From Candidatus Tachikawaea gelatinosa (GTDB taxonomy: Bacteria; Pseudomonadota; Gammaproteobacteria; Enterobacterales; Enterobacteriaceae): 64,000 nucleotides of DNA. The notes beneath the pieces are model-generated. The model was not told the origin of the DNA, did no database searches, and worked only from the letters and a program-made list of their open reading frames with translations. Positions 21,074 through 64,000 of the stretch are shown piece after piece. The position numbers and the translations under genes are program-made. The stretch's first letter is position 1; every line of letters begins with the position of its first letter. The stretch lies in assembly GCF_000828815.1 (NCBI RefSeq), contig NZ_AP014521.1, forward strand, positions 32,001 to 96,000, given 5' to 3'.

Positions 21074-22007
21074 TTATACTTCTAATTTTTCTTCATTTAT
21101 TGCAAATTTATACAATAAATTTTTTTGGATATCGTGAATTTTTGCAGTTAAGTATACTGCTTTTTTTAAAGAAAGTTCTTTTTTTAATAAAAAATAAGTT
21201 TTAATTATTTTCTTGTCAAGTATTTTTTTATTTAAATTTTTATATCCTTCTACTAATAAAACTAGTTCTCCTTTATATCTGTTTCTATCTTCTTTCAACC
21301 ATTCTATTAATTTACATATTTGAGAACCATAAATATGTTCCCATTTTTTAGTAATTTCTCGTGCTAAAACAATATATCTAGTTTCACCAAATGCTTTTTT
21401 CATATCTTTTAAGCTTTCTATAATACGATGATTAGTTTCATAGAAAATTAAAGTTCGGACATCTTTAGACAATGAACATAAAAGCTCGTATCTTTTTTTA
21501 GAAATCTTTGGTAAAAATCCCTCATAACAAAATCGGATACAAGGTAATCCCGAAGCAATTAATGCAGTAATTGCTGCACAAGCACCAGGTAATGCAATAA
21601 TTCGAATTTTTTTTTCTTTGCAAAGTTGCACTAATTTATAACCAGGGTCATTAATTAATGGAGTTCCTGCTTTAGATACTATAGCAATACTTTTTTTTTT
21701 CTAACAATTTTATCAACTGATGATTTCTTTGTGGTTCATTATAAGCATTAAATGATATATATTTTTTTTTAATATTAAAATTTTTGAGCAGAATACTAGT
21801 ATATCGGGTGTCTTCTGCTGCTATTAAATCTACTTTTGATAATATTTGTATCGCTCGTAAAGAAATATCAGAAATATTTCCGATAGGAGTTGGAACAATA
21901 TATAGCGTATTTGAAAAAAAAGTTTGTTTATCTAAATTATTGAAAATCTTTGAAAATTCAAGGTTCATATTATTTATATTCTGAAAATTGTTTATTAAAA
22001 CTTTCAT
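21074..22007 (-). pseudogene. rsmI: 16S rRNA 2'-O-methyltransferase RsmI, frame broken at a 10-A tract
   Basis: RsmI methylates the ribose of C1402 in the 16S rRNA decoding centre. The N-terminal frame (22007 down to 21672) gives LYIVPTPIGNISDIS and AEDTRYT, then falls off into a stop right after LEKKK. The rest (AGTPLINDPGYKLV, GACAAITALIASGLP, FYEGFLP-like and EITKKWEHIYG down to 21074) continues in another frame. The switch lies at a run of ten A (minus strand, 21691-21700); nine would restore one frame. Both halves are otherwise well conserved. This can be a true pseudogene, a gene rescued by polymerase slippage at the A tract, as reported in Buchnera and Blochmannia, or an assembly error. 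The motif usually SDAGTP reads SKAGTP. Confidence 0.9.
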
Positions 22008-57515: not shown

Positions 57516-58469
57516 ATGAAGATGAATTTGAAAAAAAATAATACATGCGCTATAAAATATTCACGTGATTTTATTGGTTATGGTAATAATAGTCCTAATT
57601 TTCGTTGGCCAAATAACACAAATATTGCAATTCAGTTTGTCTTAAATTATGAAGAAGGAGGAGAGAGTCATATACAAAATGGAGATAAATTTTCTGAAAA
57701 ATTTCTTTCAGATATAACAAACGCACAAGAATATAATAATATTCATATGTCTATGGATTCAATTTATGAGTATGGTTCTCGTGTAGGTTGTTTGAGAATT
57801 ATGAAAGAATTTCAAAAAAGAAATTTACCTCTCACGATTTTTGCTGTAGCAATAGCATTAGAAAAAAATTCAGAAATCATATCAATAATTAAATCAAATT
57901 ACTTTGATATAGTGAGTCATGGTTTTCGTTGGATTAATTATCAAAACATTAATGAGAAAATTGAAAAAAAACATATAGATCAAGCAGTAAAAATATTTAT
58001 TAAAATTTTTAATAAAAAACCAACAGGTTGGTATACAGGAAGGGATAGTCCTAATACCCGTAGATTAATAGTAGAAAATGGTTCTTTCATTTATGATAGT
58101 GATTATTATGGCGATGATTTACCTTTTTGGACAAAAGTAACTTGTAAAAATAAAATCATAAAACCTCATTTAATAATTCCGTATACATTAGATTGTAACG
58201 ATATGCGTTTTGTTACACAACAAGGATTTGGAACTTCAGAACATTTCTATAAATATTTACGTGATACATTTGATGTTTTATATAAAGAAGGAAAAAACAC
58301 ACCTAAAATGATGTCTATTGGAATGCATGGTCGAATATTAGGTCGACCTGGTCGGTTCAAAGGATTGCAAAATTTTCTTGATTATATTCAACAATATAAA
58401 AAAATTTGGATCTGTACACGACAACAAATTGCTGAATTTTGGATAAAAAATTTTCCTTATTCTTTTTGA
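57516..58469 (+). CDS. puuE: Allantoinase PuuE (polysaccharide-deacetylase fold)
   Basis: PuuE opens the ring of allantoin to allantoate; it belongs to the polysaccharide-deacetylase-like family rather than the amidohydrolase allantoinases (AllB). The 317 residues match the Pseudomonas PuuE type over the whole length: YSRDFIGYGNNSPNFRWPNN at the start, FVLNYEEGGESHI (about 41-53), MDSIYEYGSRVG, SHGFRWINYQ, GWYTGRDSPNTRRL, YTLDCNDMRF and MLSIGLH-like MMSIGMHGRILGRPGR. It stands at the edge of a ureide cluster with hpxYXW and hpxJK. Base composition is like its neighbours, so the gene is an old resident. Confidence 0.93.
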   Translation: MKMNLKKNNTCAIKYSRDFIGYGNNSPNFRWPNNTNIAIQFVLNYEEGGESHIQNGDKFSEKFLSDITNAQEYNNIHMSMDSIYEYGSRVGCLRIMKEFQKRNLPLTIFAVAIALEKNSEIISIIKSNYFDIVSHGFRWINYQNINEKIEKKHIDQAVKIFIKIFNKKPTGWYTGRDSPNTRRLIVENGSFIYDSDYYGDDLPFWTKVTCKNKIIKPHLIIPYTLDCNDMRFVTQQGFGTSEHFYKYLRDTFDVLYKEGKNTPKMMSIGMHGRILGRPGRFKGLQNFLDYIQQYKKIWICTRQQIAEFWIKNFPYSF

Positions 58470-58506: not shown

Positions 58507-59904
58507 TTATAGTCTAATATTCCTAGGTTTCAATAATATTTCTTTTTTTTCTAATTCCCAAGCTATTCTTAAAGCATTTATTTCTTTAAATGGAGAAGCA
58601 ATTATTTGTATTCCAATTGGTAATTTTTTATCAGTCATTAATGGCACGCTACAAACTGGTAAACCAATAAAAGAAATTGGTTGTGTTAATAACCCCATAG
58701 CCACACGTGGTGAAAAATTTGTATTATTAATAATCATGTTTTCTTGTCCAATTAAAGTAGCACTACAAGGAGTAGATGGTGCAATTAATATATCAATTTT
58801 TTTAAAAATAGATGCAACAATTTTTTGAAAAATACGTCGAAAACGTTGAGCTTGAATATACCAAGTATTTGGTATCATAGAACCTGCTAAAAGTCTAGGG
58901 TATGAATAACTATCCATTTTTAATGATTTACGTAAATATGGTAAGTAATTATTTCCAGCTTCAGAGGCTGTAATAATAAAAGCAGATATACGAGCTATAA
59001 TTGCTTCAGGTAAAATAATTTCTTCTTGTATATTTAATGATTGAGCAACTTTTTTAACTGCTAGATTCGCATGTTTATCACACCACTTTTTAAAAAAACC
59101 TCCAAGAACAGCGCATTTTAATCCTTTTGCACCTTTTTTAATACAATTAAAATTATACATCGAATTATCAGAATAAGAAGATTGAAAACAATCTTGTATA
59201 TCACGTCCACATAAAACATTATAAACAAGTGCAAGATCTTCAACACAGCGAGCAAAATGACCAACATGATCTAAACTGCTTGAAAAAACGTGCACTCCGT
59301 TTCGAGAAATACGTCCAAAAGTTGGTTTTAACCCAAAAATTCCACATAAAGAAGCAGGTACTCTTATTGAACCATTTGTATCAGTTCCAAGCGAAAATGG
59401 AATTAAACCTGCAGATACTGCTGCAGCTGATCCTCCTGATGAACCACCTGCTATACGTTTATGATCATGTGGGTTACGCGTAGGACCATAATCGCTATTT
59501 TCTGTAGTAAAACCATATGCATAAGCATCCATATTTAATGCACCTGTTAACAAAGCTCCTGACTGTAACAATTTATTTATTGTCCATGCATCTTTAATAG
59601 CGGGTTTGTTTTTTTTAAAAATTTTTGATCCAACTAATGTTATATAATTTTTTATATTAAAAATGTTTTTAACCCCATAGGGTATTCCTAATAAAGGTAA
59701 ATTTTTAATGTTTTTAAAATATTTTTTCTCAAGATTAGTTGCTTCAAGCAACATACGTTTTTCAGTAATTGTTATCCAAGCATTTAATTGTGGATTATAT
59801 TTTTGAATATTTTTTATCGTTTCTTTCGTGATTTCTTGGATACTTATTTTCTTTTTAAGAATAGCTGATTTCAATTGTTTAATAGTTAGTCCAAAAATAT
59901 TCAT
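58507..59904 (-). CDS. hpxY: AtzE/HpxY-like amidase of the ureide cluster
   Basis: An amidase-signature hydrolase of 465 residues. The Ser-cisSer-Lys triad is visible: YGVKNIF (Lys79), AGGSSGGSAAAVSAG (Ser155/156) and TDTNGSIRVPAS (nucleophile Ser179). It follows hpxX with an ATGA overlap, and a small DUF4089-like subunit directly upstream is characteristic of AtzG-AtzE and of Klebsiella HpxX-HpxY, not of GatCAB. AtzE hydrolyses 1-carboxybiuret; the substrate of HpxY in uric acid breakdown is not firmly known to me. It is convergent with puuE. Family assignment is firm, the substrate is inferred. Confidence 0.82.
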   Translation of the reverse strand: MNIFGLTIKQLKSAILKKKISIQEITKETIKNIQKYNPQLNAWITITEKRMLLEATNLEKKYFKNIKNLPLLGIPYGVKNIFNIKNYITLVGSKIFKKNKPAIKDAWTINKLLQSGALLTGALNMDAYAYGFTTENSDYGPTRNPHDHKRIAGGSSGGSAAAVSAGLIPFSLGTDTNGSIRVPASLCGIFGLKPTFGRISRNGVHVFSSSLDHVGHFARCVEDLALVYNVLCGRDIQDCFQSSYSDNSMYNFNCIKKGAKGLKCAVLGGFFKKWCDKHANLAVKKVAQSLNIQEEIILPEAIIARISAFIITASEAGNNYLPYLRKSLKMDSYSYPRLLAGSMIPNTWYIQAQRFRRIFQKIVASIFKKIDILIAPSTPCSATLIGQENMIINNTNFSPRVAMGLLTQPISFIGLPVCSVPLMTDKKLPIGIQIIASPFKEINALRIAWELEKKEILLKPRNIRL

Positions 59905-60083
59905 GCATTAAAAACTCCTGATATTTCTATATCATATTCGATTGGATAACTCATTAAAATTATTGATAATTCTTCAATTTGTTTTAATTGATATAATAAT
60001 TTTAAACGATTAGTATTATTTATCTTTAGTTCTAAAATATCTTCCATATGATGAATATAATTCATCCAATTTTTTTTTTTCAT
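59901..60083 (-). CDS. hpxX: Small HpxX/AtzG-like subunit (DUF4089 type)
   Basis: A 60-residue protein read from ATG at 60083; a longer frame begins at 60110 inside hpxW. It has no catalytic motif. It shows the two-helix pattern of AtzG/HpxX partners: MNYIHHMEDILEL, then LKQIEELSIILMSYPIE and the tail EISGVFNA. AtzG resembles GatC and is needed for AtzE folding and activity. The ATGA overlap with hpxY and the 14-base gap from hpxW argue that it is a real gene. The assignment rests on context and weak pattern similarity. Confidence 0.72.
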   Translation of the reverse strand: MKKKNWMNYIHHMEDILELKINNTNRLKLLYQLKQIEELSIILMSYPIEYDIEISGVFNA

Positions 60084-60097
60084 ATAATATCTGTTTT

Positions 60098-61693
60098 TTA
60101 AAAACCACATGCGCTTCCGTTGCTACGTGGATCATAAGCACCTTCTAATATTCCATTACTATGACGAACAATTATACCTGCATGACCAACTTTTTCACTA
60201 TATTGAGATAGTATCTCTATGTTATGTCCCATTTTTTTTAAATCTTTTAAAATATTTATAAAAAATCGATTTTCGAGTTTTAAGGTGTTACAATTTTTAC
60301 CCCAATTTCTTCCAAATAACCAACGAGGCGCACTAATTGCATCTTGAAGTGGTATATTTTGTGTTACATATCGATGAAAAATTGTTGCTTGTGTTTGCGG
60401 TTGTCCATCTCCACCCATTGATCCATATACCATTAATTTACCATTTTTTAATATAGCTAAAGAAGGACAGAGAGTGTGAAATGGTTTTTTTTTAGGGAAT
60501 AAAGTTAATATTTTTTTAGGTTCTAAAACAAAAGATGAACCTCTATTATTCCATAAAATTCCTGTTTTAGGAATAACAACACCACTGCCAAACTCATGAT
60601 ATATACTTTGAATAAAAGAAACTGCAATACCATTTTTATCTATAGCACCCATCCAAACAGTATCATTTTTAAAAAAACTATTATATAAAAAATCAGTAGC
60701 TTTATGCTTATTTATTTTATCAAATAGAGATTTTAAATAATCTTTTGAAAGTAATGATTGTAAATTTTTGTTCATATAAATAGGATCAGTGATATATTTA
60801 TCGCGCATAAAAAAAGCTATTTTTGTTGCTTCGACAATATAATGAATATTATGTGATTCTTTTTTATAATTAATTTTAGATAAGTTATCAATAATTCCTA
60901 ATATAACTAGAGCAACAAAACCTTGGGTTGGAGGCATTGTATTCCATATTTTTCCTTTACTATGAGACAAATATAAAGGAACATGGGATTGTGCACGATA
61001 ACTCATTAAATCATTTAAAGTAATAGGAATATTTAGTTTTAACATACCTTTTGCTATTTTACACGCTGTTTCTCCTCGATAGAAACTATCTAAACCATCT
61101 TTACTTAAATTTATTAATGTTTTTGCTAATTCAGGTTGAAAAAAAAGGTCACCAGGTTTATAAATATTTTTATTATCTTTTAGAAAAATTTTAGAAAAAC
61201 CAGGTTGATTAATTAATTCTAATTTTTTAGATTCAGTCATAATACTTTGTGATAAAGTGATTGGAAAACCATTACTTGCATAATTAATTGCATCATTTAA
61301 TAATTCATAAATAGAAAAGGATTGCAAAATTTTTTTTTCTTTTATTAAATTTAATGCTTTTTCCCATCCACTAACAGTACCTGCAATTGTTAATGCTGAT
61401 TGTGGACCTCTATAAGGAATAGTTTTTTTGTTATTAAAGTATTTTATGTTAGCTAATGACCCAGAAAATCCACTTGCATCAATAGCTATAGGTTTTTCTT
61501 TAGGGAACATAATAATCCAAAATCCATCACCTCCTAATCCGTTCATATGAGGATAAACTACTGAAATGGTTGCTGCAGCTGATACCATTGCTTCAATTGC
61601 GTTTCCACCTTTACGTAATATTTTTAATCCGCTTGAACTAGCTAAATGGTGAGGAGTAACAACCATTCCATTAACAGACATATTGCTTTGCAT
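60098..61693 (-). CDS. hpxW: HpxW-like oxamate amidohydrolase (gamma-glutamyltransferase fold)
   Basis: An Ntn-hydrolase of the gamma-glutamyltransferase family, 531 residues. After GGNAIEAMVSAAATISVVYPHMNGLGGDGF in pieces (29-58), the self-cleavage site NDTVWMGAIDKNG puts the nucleophile at Thr345. The small subunit has NNRGSSF, PFHTLCPSLA and YGSMGGDGQPQTQ. There is no signal peptide, unlike periplasmic Ggt, so it is cytoplasmic. In Klebsiella HpxW hydrolyses oxamate to oxalate and ammonia at the end of uric acid breakdown. Location with hpxX, hpxY and ureide genes supports this over a glutathione role. It diverges from hpxJ. Confidence 0.85.
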   Translation of the reverse strand: MQSNMSVNGMVVTPHHLASSSGLKILRKGGNAIEAMVSAAATISVVYPHMNGLGGDGFWIIMFPKEKPIAIDASGFSGSLANIKYFNNKKTIPYRGPQSALTIAGTVSGWEKALNLIKEKKILQSFSIYELLNDAINYASNGFPITLSQSIMTESKKLELINQPGFSKIFLKDNKNIYKPGDLFFQPELAKTLINLSKDGLDSFYRGETACKIAKGMLKLNIPITLNDLMSYRAQSHVPLYLSHSKGKIWNTMPPTQGFVALVILGIIDNLSKINYKKESHNIHYIVEATKIAFFMRDKYITDPIYMNKNLQSLLSKDYLKSLFDKINKHKATDFLYNSFFKNDTVWMGAIDKNGIAVSFIQSIYHEFGSGVVIPKTGILWNNRGSSFVLEPKKILTLFPKKKPFHTLCPSLAILKNGKLMVYGSMGGDGQPQTQATIFHRYVTQNIPLQDAISAPRWLFGRNWGKNCNTLKLENRFFINILKDLKKMGHNIEILSQYSEKVGHAGIIVRHSNGILEGAYDPRSNGSACGF

Positions 61694-61870: not shown

Positions 61871-63103
61871 GTGAAGAATAATATATATAAACAAATAAAT
61901 CCTCCTCAAAGATTGCTTATGGGTGCTGGACCAGTAAATGTTGATCCTAGAGTATTAAAAGCAATGTCTAGTAATATAATTGGACAATATGATGAGATAA
62001 TGATTAATTATATGGATGAAGTTATGCAATTATATCGTCAATTATTTATGACAAAAAATTTTTGTACTTTAATTGTAAACGGTACATCAAGAGCTGGTAT
62101 TGAATCTATTTTTGTTTCTATAATAAAACCTGGGGATAAAGTTTTAGTTCCTATTTTTGGTCGTTTTGGTTATTTATTATGCGAAGTTGCTTATAGATGT
62201 CGCGCAAAAGTTTATAGAATAGAAGTTGCTTGGGGGAAAGTTTTTAGTGCAAATAAAATTGAACACTATATTAAAAAAATTAAACCAAATTTTTTGTTTA
62301 TTGTCCATGGAGATACTTCTACAACAATGTTACAACCTTTATCTGATTTAGGAAAAATTTGTAAAAAATATAGCGTTTTTTTTTATACTGATGCTACAGC
62401 TACTATTGCTGGAAACTTTTTAAAAACTGATGATTGGGAATTAGATGCAGTTTCTGTAGGTATGCAAAAATGTTTAGGAGGTCCTTCTGGCAGTTCTCCT
62501 ATTACTATTAATAAAAAAATGGAAGGTATCATTAATAACAGGAAATCTATAGAAGAAGGTTTACGTAATTCTTTAGATAAAATAAACAAAAAATACATAT
62601 CTTCAAATTATTTTGATTTATCAATGATAATTGATTACTGGGGAGCTAAACGTTTAAATCATCATACTGAATCAACTACTGCACTATTTGCAGTTCGTGA
62701 GTGCGCTAGAATTATTTTAGAAGAAGGTCTTGAAGAAAACATTAAACGTCATAAATTACACGGTGATGCCTTACTAAAAGGAATATTAGGTATGGGTTTA
62801 AAAATTTTTGGTGATATAAAAAATAAAATGAATAATGTTGTTGGAATTATTATTCCAAAAAAAATAAATGGTGAACAAGTACGTTCATTAATGCTTAACG
62901 ATTTTGGCATCGAAATCGGCACTTCTTTTGGTCCATTATATGGAAAAATATGGAGAATTGGAACGATGGGATATAATGCAAGAAGAGATTGTGTTTTACA
63001 AACTTTAAGTGCATTAGAATCAACGCTACATCGTTTAGGTTTTAAAATAAATCATGGTCATGCTTTACAAGAAGCATGGAATCACTATGATAAAATGAGT
63101 TAA
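61871..63103 (+). CDS. hpxJ: Ureidoglycine-glyoxylate aminotransferase (HpxJ/PucG type)
   Basis: A fold-type I PLP enzyme that transfers the amino group of unstable (S)-ureidoglycine to glyoxylate, giving oxalurate and glycine. The 410 residues show MGAGPVNVDPRVL at the start, the NGTSRAGIES phosphate-binding loop, HGDTSTTMLQPL, the PLP Asp in FYTDATATIAG, and the PLP-binding Lys200 in VGMQKCLGGPSGS, plus NHHTESTTALFAVRE. It is in the alanine/serine-glyoxylate aminotransferase family; the neighbours point to ureidoglycine as substrate. The start is GTG at 61871; an overlapping ATG frame stops at once. hpxK follows by 15 bases. Confidence 0.88.
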   Translation: MKNNIYKQINPPQRLLMGAGPVNVDPRVLKAMSSNIIGQYDEIMINYMDEVMQLYRQLFMTKNFCTLIVNGTSRAGIESIFVSIIKPGDKVLVPIFGRFGYLLCEVAYRCRAKVYRIEVAWGKVFSANKIEHYIKKIKPNFLFIVHGDTSTTMLQPLSDLGKICKKYSVFFYTDATATIAGNFLKTDDWELDAVSVGMQKCLGGPSGSSPITINKKMEGIINNRKSIEEGLRNSLDKINKKYISSNYFDLSMIIDYWGAKRLNHHTESTTALFAVRECARIILEEGLEENIKRHKLHGDALLKGILGMGLKIFGDIKNKMNNVVGIIIPKKINGEQVRSLMLNDFGIEIGTSFGPLYGKIWRIGTMGYNARRDCVLQTLSALESTLHRLGFKINHGHALQEAWNHYDKMS

Positions 63104-63118
63104 AAAAAAGGACTTATA

Positions 63119-64000
63119 ATGAACAAAATTTTAATAACTTTTGATGAAGCAAAAAAAATGGCAAAAAGCGTTATGAAACGCTGTAATATTTTAGGAAAAA
63201 TTAGTGAGAATAAAAACATAATTACACGATTATATCTTTCAAAAGAACATAAACATGTAAATATCATAGTTGAAAAATGGATGCAAAAAGCTGGTATGAA
63301 AACATGGCAAGATGAGGTAGGTAATATTTGTGGTCGTTATGAAGGTAATACATTAAATTCATCTGCTATTCTTATGGCATCACATTTAGATACAGTAAAA
63401 AATGCAGGAAAATATGATGGAATATTAGGTGTATTAAGTTCAATAGAAATTGTTCATTGGTTTCATAAAAAAAATTTACGTTTTAATTTTGCCATTGAAG
63501 TAATTGGTTTTGCTGATGAAGAAGGTGTAAGGTTTGGAATACCATTTCTAGGTAGCAAAGGAATAATAGGGGAATGGATAAAAGATTGGCTGAATATAAT
63601 AGATAATAAAGGAATTTCATTAAAACGAGCAATGGAAGGTTTTGGATTAAATCCTAATTTTTTTAATAAAGCATCTCGTGCTAAAGACGATTTTATTACC
63701 TATTTAGAATTGCATATTGAACAAGGACCTTATTTATATTTGGAAAAATTACCGTTAGCTGTGGTAAAAGGAATTAATGGCATGTATCATTTAGAATGTA
63801 AATTTATAGGTGAATCTGGTCACGCTGGTACTGTTCCTATGTCTTGTAGAAAAGATGTATTTTTTGCTTTTTCTGAATGGTTGATGTTTTTAAGAAAAAA
63901 TATACAAAAAGAAAAATATAGCAAAAAAATTGTTAGTACTATCGGTAAGTTTAATTGTTTTCCTAATGTAACTAATGTTATTCCAGAAAGTATTGTTTTT
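63119..64000 (+). CDS. hpxK: Allantoate amidohydrolase (HpxK/AllC type), C-terminus beyond window
   Basis: This frame is open from ATG at 63119 to the last base of the window (294 codons) with no stop. It is an M20-family metallohydrolase. Metal-binding motifs are SHLDTV (His89), KYDGILGVL (Asp100), FADEEGVRFG (Glu134/135) and LELHIEQGP (His199), followed by the dimerisation domain GESGHAGTVPM. The specific GADEEG/LHIEQG pattern fits allantoate amidohydrolases and ureidoglycolate/carbamoyl-amino-acid hydrolases. The neighbours puuE and hpxJ favour allantoate, releasing CO2, ammonia and ureidoglycine. An AAAGGAC site precedes it, 15 bases past hpxJ. Confidence 0.9.
   Translation, partial: MNKILITFDEAKKMAKSVMKRCNILGKISENKNIITRLYLSKEHKHVNIIVEKWMQKAGMKTWQDEVGNICGRYEGNTLNSSAILMASHLDTVKNAGKYDGILGVLSSIEIVHWFHKKNLRFNFAIEVIGFADEEGVRFGIPFLGSKGIIGEWIKDWLNIIDNKGISLKRAMEGFGLNPNFFNKASRAKDDFITYLELHIEQGPYLYLEKLPLAVVKGINGMYHLECKFIGESGHAGTVPMSCRKDVFFAFSEWLMFLRKNIQKEKYSKKIVSTIGKFNCFPNVTNVIPESIVF

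Follow-up and report, generated by a model that had tools for sequence, protein, structure and literature searches.

We found that the short frame between hpxW and hpxY is hpxX, a member of a known family of small amidase subunits, and that its product is most likely the non-catalytic, GatC-like partner in HpxXY, an oxalurate-deaminating amidase with translationally coupled subunits. The family membership of HpxX, its gene order, its co-retention with HpxY and its predicted fold are shown here, whereas formation of the complex, the solubilising role, the translational coupling and the reaction are inferred. Both the HpxX family and the W-X-Y-Z gene cluster have been described before. Throughout, the window is the whole stretch of 64,000 nt that was analysed.

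As a sequence-only reading had claimed, the frame is present and 60 residues long; it lies on the minus strand, and the plus strand of the same interval gives a translation full of stops (Table 1). The spacings proposed in that reading are exact, with the hpxX stop lying on the hpxY start in a 4-base ATGA overlap and 14 bases separating the frame from the hpxW stop at 60098. An alternative in-frame ATG at 60110 would extend the protein to 69 residues and overlap hpxW. We provisionally prefer the 60-residue start, because the nearest ATGs of several homologues are close to it.

Table 1. Features of the hpxX locus in window coordinates, with the basis of each assignment.
Feature	Position	Strand	Basis or remark
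puuE-type allantoinase	57516..58469	+	TIGR03212 443.1 bits, cut-off 424.6
hpxY, AtzE-family amidase	58507..59904	-	NF006631 627 bits, cut-off 461
hpxX, 60-residue AtzG/GatC-like subunit	59901..60083	-	PF13318, NF033624, predicted fold, PDB ranking; ATG 60083-60081, stop TGA 59903-59901
hpxX stop/hpxY start ATGA overlap	59901..59904	-	hpxY ATG 59904-59902
A11 run, codons 2-5 of hpxX	60070..60080	-	frame open as sequenced
hpxW, gamma-glutamyltranspeptidase-like	60098..61693	-	PF01019 E 4.8e-122; TIGR00066 353.8 bits, cut-off 357.85 just missed
class V aminotransferase	61871..63103	+	PF00266 E 8.4e-14; no NCBIfam model over cut-off
hpxK-like allantoate amidohydrolase	63119..64000, continues beyond the window to 64390	+	TIGR01879 E 5.3e-110 (match G000:C1:95209-96366; ORF G000:C1:95119-96390)

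Sequence comparison confirms that hpxX is a genuine but diverged member of a known small-subunit family. The Pfam profile PF13318 (AtzG-like) matched HpxX over its curated cut-off (E 6.2e-7, 30.1 bits, cut-off 24, profile 1-50 of 50), placing it in the AtzG-like family, and this is the single PF13318 match in the window's whole genome (G000). The NCBIfam HpxX profile NF033624 also matched the frame across all 55 of its positions (E 8.4e-13, 48.1 bits), at a score below the 70-bit equivalog cut-off, which counts against our explanation; therefore, the gene is filed as AtzG-like and named HpxX by its position and partner. That cut-off was passed in 124 of 128 matching genomes, the four below it being G000, G021, G082 and G189. 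HpxX of the window also deviates at the near-invariant positions P42, L48 and A55, a second point against. Searched alone against PDB sequences with phmmer, HpxX had no match up to E 10, and a profile of 12 HpxX sequences (window included) found the AtzG chain 6c62_C at E 0.00016, with the other three matches at E 0.94 to 1. The proposal of an HpxX/AtzG-like subunit is thus supported by one family profile over its cut-off and by another matched over its full length.

The genomic context agrees with this assignment. The frame lies directly upstream of an AtzE/HpxY amidase, with which it shares the ATGA overlap, and the adjacent GGT-like hpxW, puuE, class V aminotransferase and allantoate-amidohydrolase-like genes place it in a purine-ureide hpx cluster. 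The gene resembles hpxX of the Klebsiella-type hpx cluster (NF033624) in its position between hpxW and hpxY, its overlap and its end-to-end profile match, and differs in scoring 48 bits against a cut-off of 70, in the HpxZ that was not found in the window's genome and in residing in a strongly reduced genome. The top PDB match of HpxY is 6c62_A, deposited as 'Biuret hydrolase' (E 1.7e-113), and its Lys79, Ser155 and Ser179, which we take to be the amidase-signature triad, are invariant in 12 of 12 and 11 of 11 sequences in two alignments that both contain the window's protein. An AlphaFold model of HpxY was left unused (pLDDT 64.2, with residues 121-190 and others below 50). The class V aminotransferase is presumably a ureidoglycine-glyoxylate aminotransferase (PucG/HpxJ), and we take HpxW to be an oxamate amidohydrolase by its position and homology. 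The same name is given to HpxW in PMC5270733.

We employed AlphaFold2 with nine sequences to model HpxX, which is predicted to form two helices (residues 6-17 and 23-45) followed by an extended tail (pLDDT 85.8, about 65 over the last ten residues; pTM 0.60). A Foldseek search of the model against 350,542 PDB chains gave 14 matches within an E limit of 10, of which none reached 0.001. All of the top ten were GatCAB, transamidosome, GATA-GATC or AtzE-AtzG entries, with a best E of 0.42; we take the matched chains to be GatC or AtzG from their chain letters and lengths, and 3al0_C (564 residues) is presumably GatC fused to another protein. When the model was aligned to 15 chains with VIA-align, the AtzG chain 6c62_C gave a Z of 5.4 over 59 residues (rmsd 3.8), a value within 1 of those of the eight other rows listed, and a Z this low proves little alone. 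All Foldseek E-values exceed 0.4 and no Z is as high as 8, which weighs against our explanation. As a comparison, a combined profile of HpxX and AtzG matched GatC with 54.6% probability (E 1.2e-4), while 30 column-shuffled controls reached at most 0.9%; two further, uncontrolled comparisons gave 43.7% with the AtzG-type rows by themselves and 11.6% with HpxX by itself, the latter value again unfavourable. A direct hhalign match between HpxX and AtzG (99.6%) was set aside as non-independent, because the window's sequence stood in both alignments.

HpxX is like AtzG of the cyanuric acid operon in its PF13318 and profile matches, in a gene directly before an AtzE-type amidase and in its predicted helical hairpin and tail, whereas AtzG serves triazine breakdown and the setting of hpxX is that of purine ureides, with an allantoinase and an allantoate amidohydrolase. 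The model also ranks with GatC chains of the GatCAB tRNA amidotransferase (Z 4.5 to 5.1). Unlike GatC, HpxX has 60 residues rather than the 83 to 99 of most such chains, its sequence-profile link is weak and no GatB-like gene was seen beside hpxX.

We next consider the retention of HpxX with its amidase across 392 genomes of the window's family, counting HpxX at E of at most 0.001 and HpxY at a chosen limit of 1e-130. We take these genomes to be Enterobacteriaceae and the small ones to be insect symbionts. HpxX was found in 128 genomes and HpxY in 126, and all 126 genomes with HpxY carried HpxX. Among them is G341, in which a stop interrupts HpxX and HpxY is matched in part. The two genomes with HpxX and no counted HpxY, G028 (49% complete) and G398 (87%), both carry HpxY in pieces. 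A smaller first set gave the same picture, with HpxX in 12 of the 12 genomes, among 36, that had HpxY at 1e-100. The loss of the frame from sister genomes, which would have spoken against the sequence-only reading, therefore did not occur. In a contig scan, the best 80 of 594 matching stretches were mostly GatA-like in appearance; 8 of these best 80 loci matched the HpxX profile (window included) at E 0.0041 or better, all of them with HpxX just upstream of the amidase and within the first ten (L033-L042). Of 37 loci inspected by eye, L038 and L039 show comparable short frames before the amidase.

The overlap between the two genes is retained as well. Of 13 loci, window included, 12 have ATGA where hpxX ends; in the remaining one, G028, hpxX is cut short and hpxY is disrupted. 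All 27 further loci have ATGA or GTGA there. Among ten reduced genomes, three of which overlap with those 12 loci, ATGA is kept in nine. The exception is G082 (L186), where HpxX lacks its final eight alignment columns and ends before the conserved EIAGV(Y/F) tail. There the overlap is lost and HpxY is open throughout, which counts against our explanation, and the HpxX tail is consequently not kept in every lineage.

Based on these observations, we propose that HpxX binds HpxY and maintains its folding and solubility, in the way that AtzG acts on AtzE, and that the ATGA overlap couples translation so that both proteins would be made together. According to PMC6219798, AtzG is non-catalytic and forms an obligate heterotetramer with AtzE, whose solubility depends on AtzG; 1-carboxybiuret is deaminated by AtzE, whose product may be decarboxylated by AtzH, and the carboxylated intermediates are unstable. 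From this published case and the co-retention, we infer that HpxY needs HpxX. HpxXY would remove the terminal amino group of oxalurate, yielding ammonia and unstable N-carboxyoxamate, which would lose CO2 to become oxamate, either unaided or, in genomes that have it, with the help of HpxZ. HpxW would then act on oxamate to release a second ammonia and oxalate. A different route is described for E. coli in PMC11326118, in which AllFGH converts oxalurate to oxamate and carbamoyl phosphate; Klebsiella pneumoniae is given there as lacking AllFGH.

The reduced genomes indicate which neighbours can be lost. Among the 392 genomes, the pair was found in ten whose size is at most about 1.2 Mb (G000, G013, G021, G082, G119, G145, G189, G247, G318 and G377). 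HpxW was found in eight of them and not in G021 or G189, which belong to the same genus; HpxZ turned up in G013 and G119 and not in the other eight. These counts were made without a tree, and the eight genomes in which HpxZ was not found fall in four genera, so that they are not eight independent losses. The counts cover pair-keepers only, as reduced genomes without the pair also exist (for example, G005-G007). The damaged pairs of G341 and G398 are accompanied by neither HpxW nor HpxZ, and the 2.7-Mb genome G135 has HpxX, HpxY and HpxZ with no HpxW match, which speaks against a strict order of loss. Two loci in genomes of about 480 kb, L114 (G021) and L187 (G189), keep hpxX-hpxY, with no HpxW or HpxZ found.

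Layouts are similar in G000, G013 and G021, where the pair sits among allantoinase-, aminotransferase- and allantoate-amidohydrolase-like genes, with dnaQ- and rnhA-like genes nearby; neighbours were named by eye, except for the allantoate amidohydrolases and the window's own genes. In G013 (L115), a permease-like and a racemase-like gene, again named by eye, stand between puuE and the dnaQ-like gene, and the window has neither at that place.

An alternative that accepts the HpxX family assignment is that HpxXY splits oxalurate into oxalate and urea, or uses another ureide. Our search of the open-access literature turned up no HpxXY assay, and PMC12625717 names hpxY an oxalurate amidohydrolase in its text and an oxamate carbamoyltransferase in a legend, both of which leave some room for this alternative. 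Nonetheless, urease alpha was not found in G000, G013 or G021, so that urea would be a dead end there, although the three large genomes searched alongside yielded none either. AllG was likewise not found in G000, G013 or G021, and was present in one of the three large genomes; for G000, the two negative results favour our explanation. The retention of hpxW, thought to need oxamate, in 8 of the 10 reduced genomes with the pair further argues against it, and we consider the alternative unlikely. Another stinkbug symbiont is reported in PMC7218078 to have urate oxidase and to lack allantoinase, allantoicase and urease. Judged by titles, the literature on stinkbug symbionts with allantoin or allantoate held nothing on the hpx cluster.

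A less probable explanation still is that the hpxX frame is a decaying remnant, open yet without a working product. Such decay could account for the low NCBIfam score, the A11 run and the deviations at near-invariant positions, and it has counterparts in the truncated HpxX of G082 and the damaged pairs of G028, G341 and G398. Against decay stand the profile matches over full length, the kept ATGA overlap and the selection measured in relatives. We calculated dN/dS for eight pairs of relatives, with the window's own genome in none of them; YN00 gave ratios in 3 of 16 comparisons, and NG86 ratios are quoted instead. They are below 1 throughout, at 0.19 to 0.62 for HpxX and 0.15 to 0.25 for HpxY, with genomes shared between pairs and no significance test applied. 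The HpxX ratio is at least that of HpxY in each pair, which runs counter to our explanation. By these ratios HpxX is constrained, less tightly than HpxY, and its 60 codons make the values imprecise. Lastly, the frame could be open by chance, for which its length of just 60 codons speaks. This is very unlikely and receives next to no credence from us: 60 sense codons in one given frame have a probability of about 0.004 at this base composition, and a held-out profile of nine relatives with genomes of at least 4.5 Mb, built with no sequence from the window, G013 or G021, ranked hpxX first among 1008 open stretches of the window at E 1.1e-14, with the runner-up at E 1.4.

Returning to HpxX as the partner of an oxalurate-deaminating HpxY, the losses around the pair lead to a broader and more tentative proposal, for which we rate the chances at slightly under even: HpxX and HpxY may form a minimal self-sufficient oxalurate-deaminating module, from which genome reduction drops HpxZ in most lineages and HpxW sometimes, and never HpxX from a working HpxY. 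The decarboxylation of N-carboxyoxamate to oxamate, proposed above by analogy with the AtzE case, would account for the frequent absence of HpxZ and for the occasional loss of HpxW; HpxZ would be expendable as the step can proceed unaided, and HpxW as oxamate could be discarded. If so, one nitrogen per oxalurate would be recovered without urease, carbamoyl phosphate or ATP. Whatever the fate of this proposal, the co-retention shows a 60-residue subunit, most likely structural, staying with its enzyme through severe genome reduction, so that automated annotation which discards short frames would give the impression of an amidase working alone. The pattern of lost neighbours in this sample, often HpxZ, sometimes HpxW and not HpxX from an intact HpxY, provides a testable account of which step of the purine branch brings the nitrogen benefit.

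The window contains 19 runs of at least 10 A or T, the A11 run of hpxX among them. Elsewhere in it, a methyltransferase gene that we take to be RsmI-like (21074-22007, minus strand) is divided into two frames, the break falling at an A10 run that may be a slippage site or a sequencing error.
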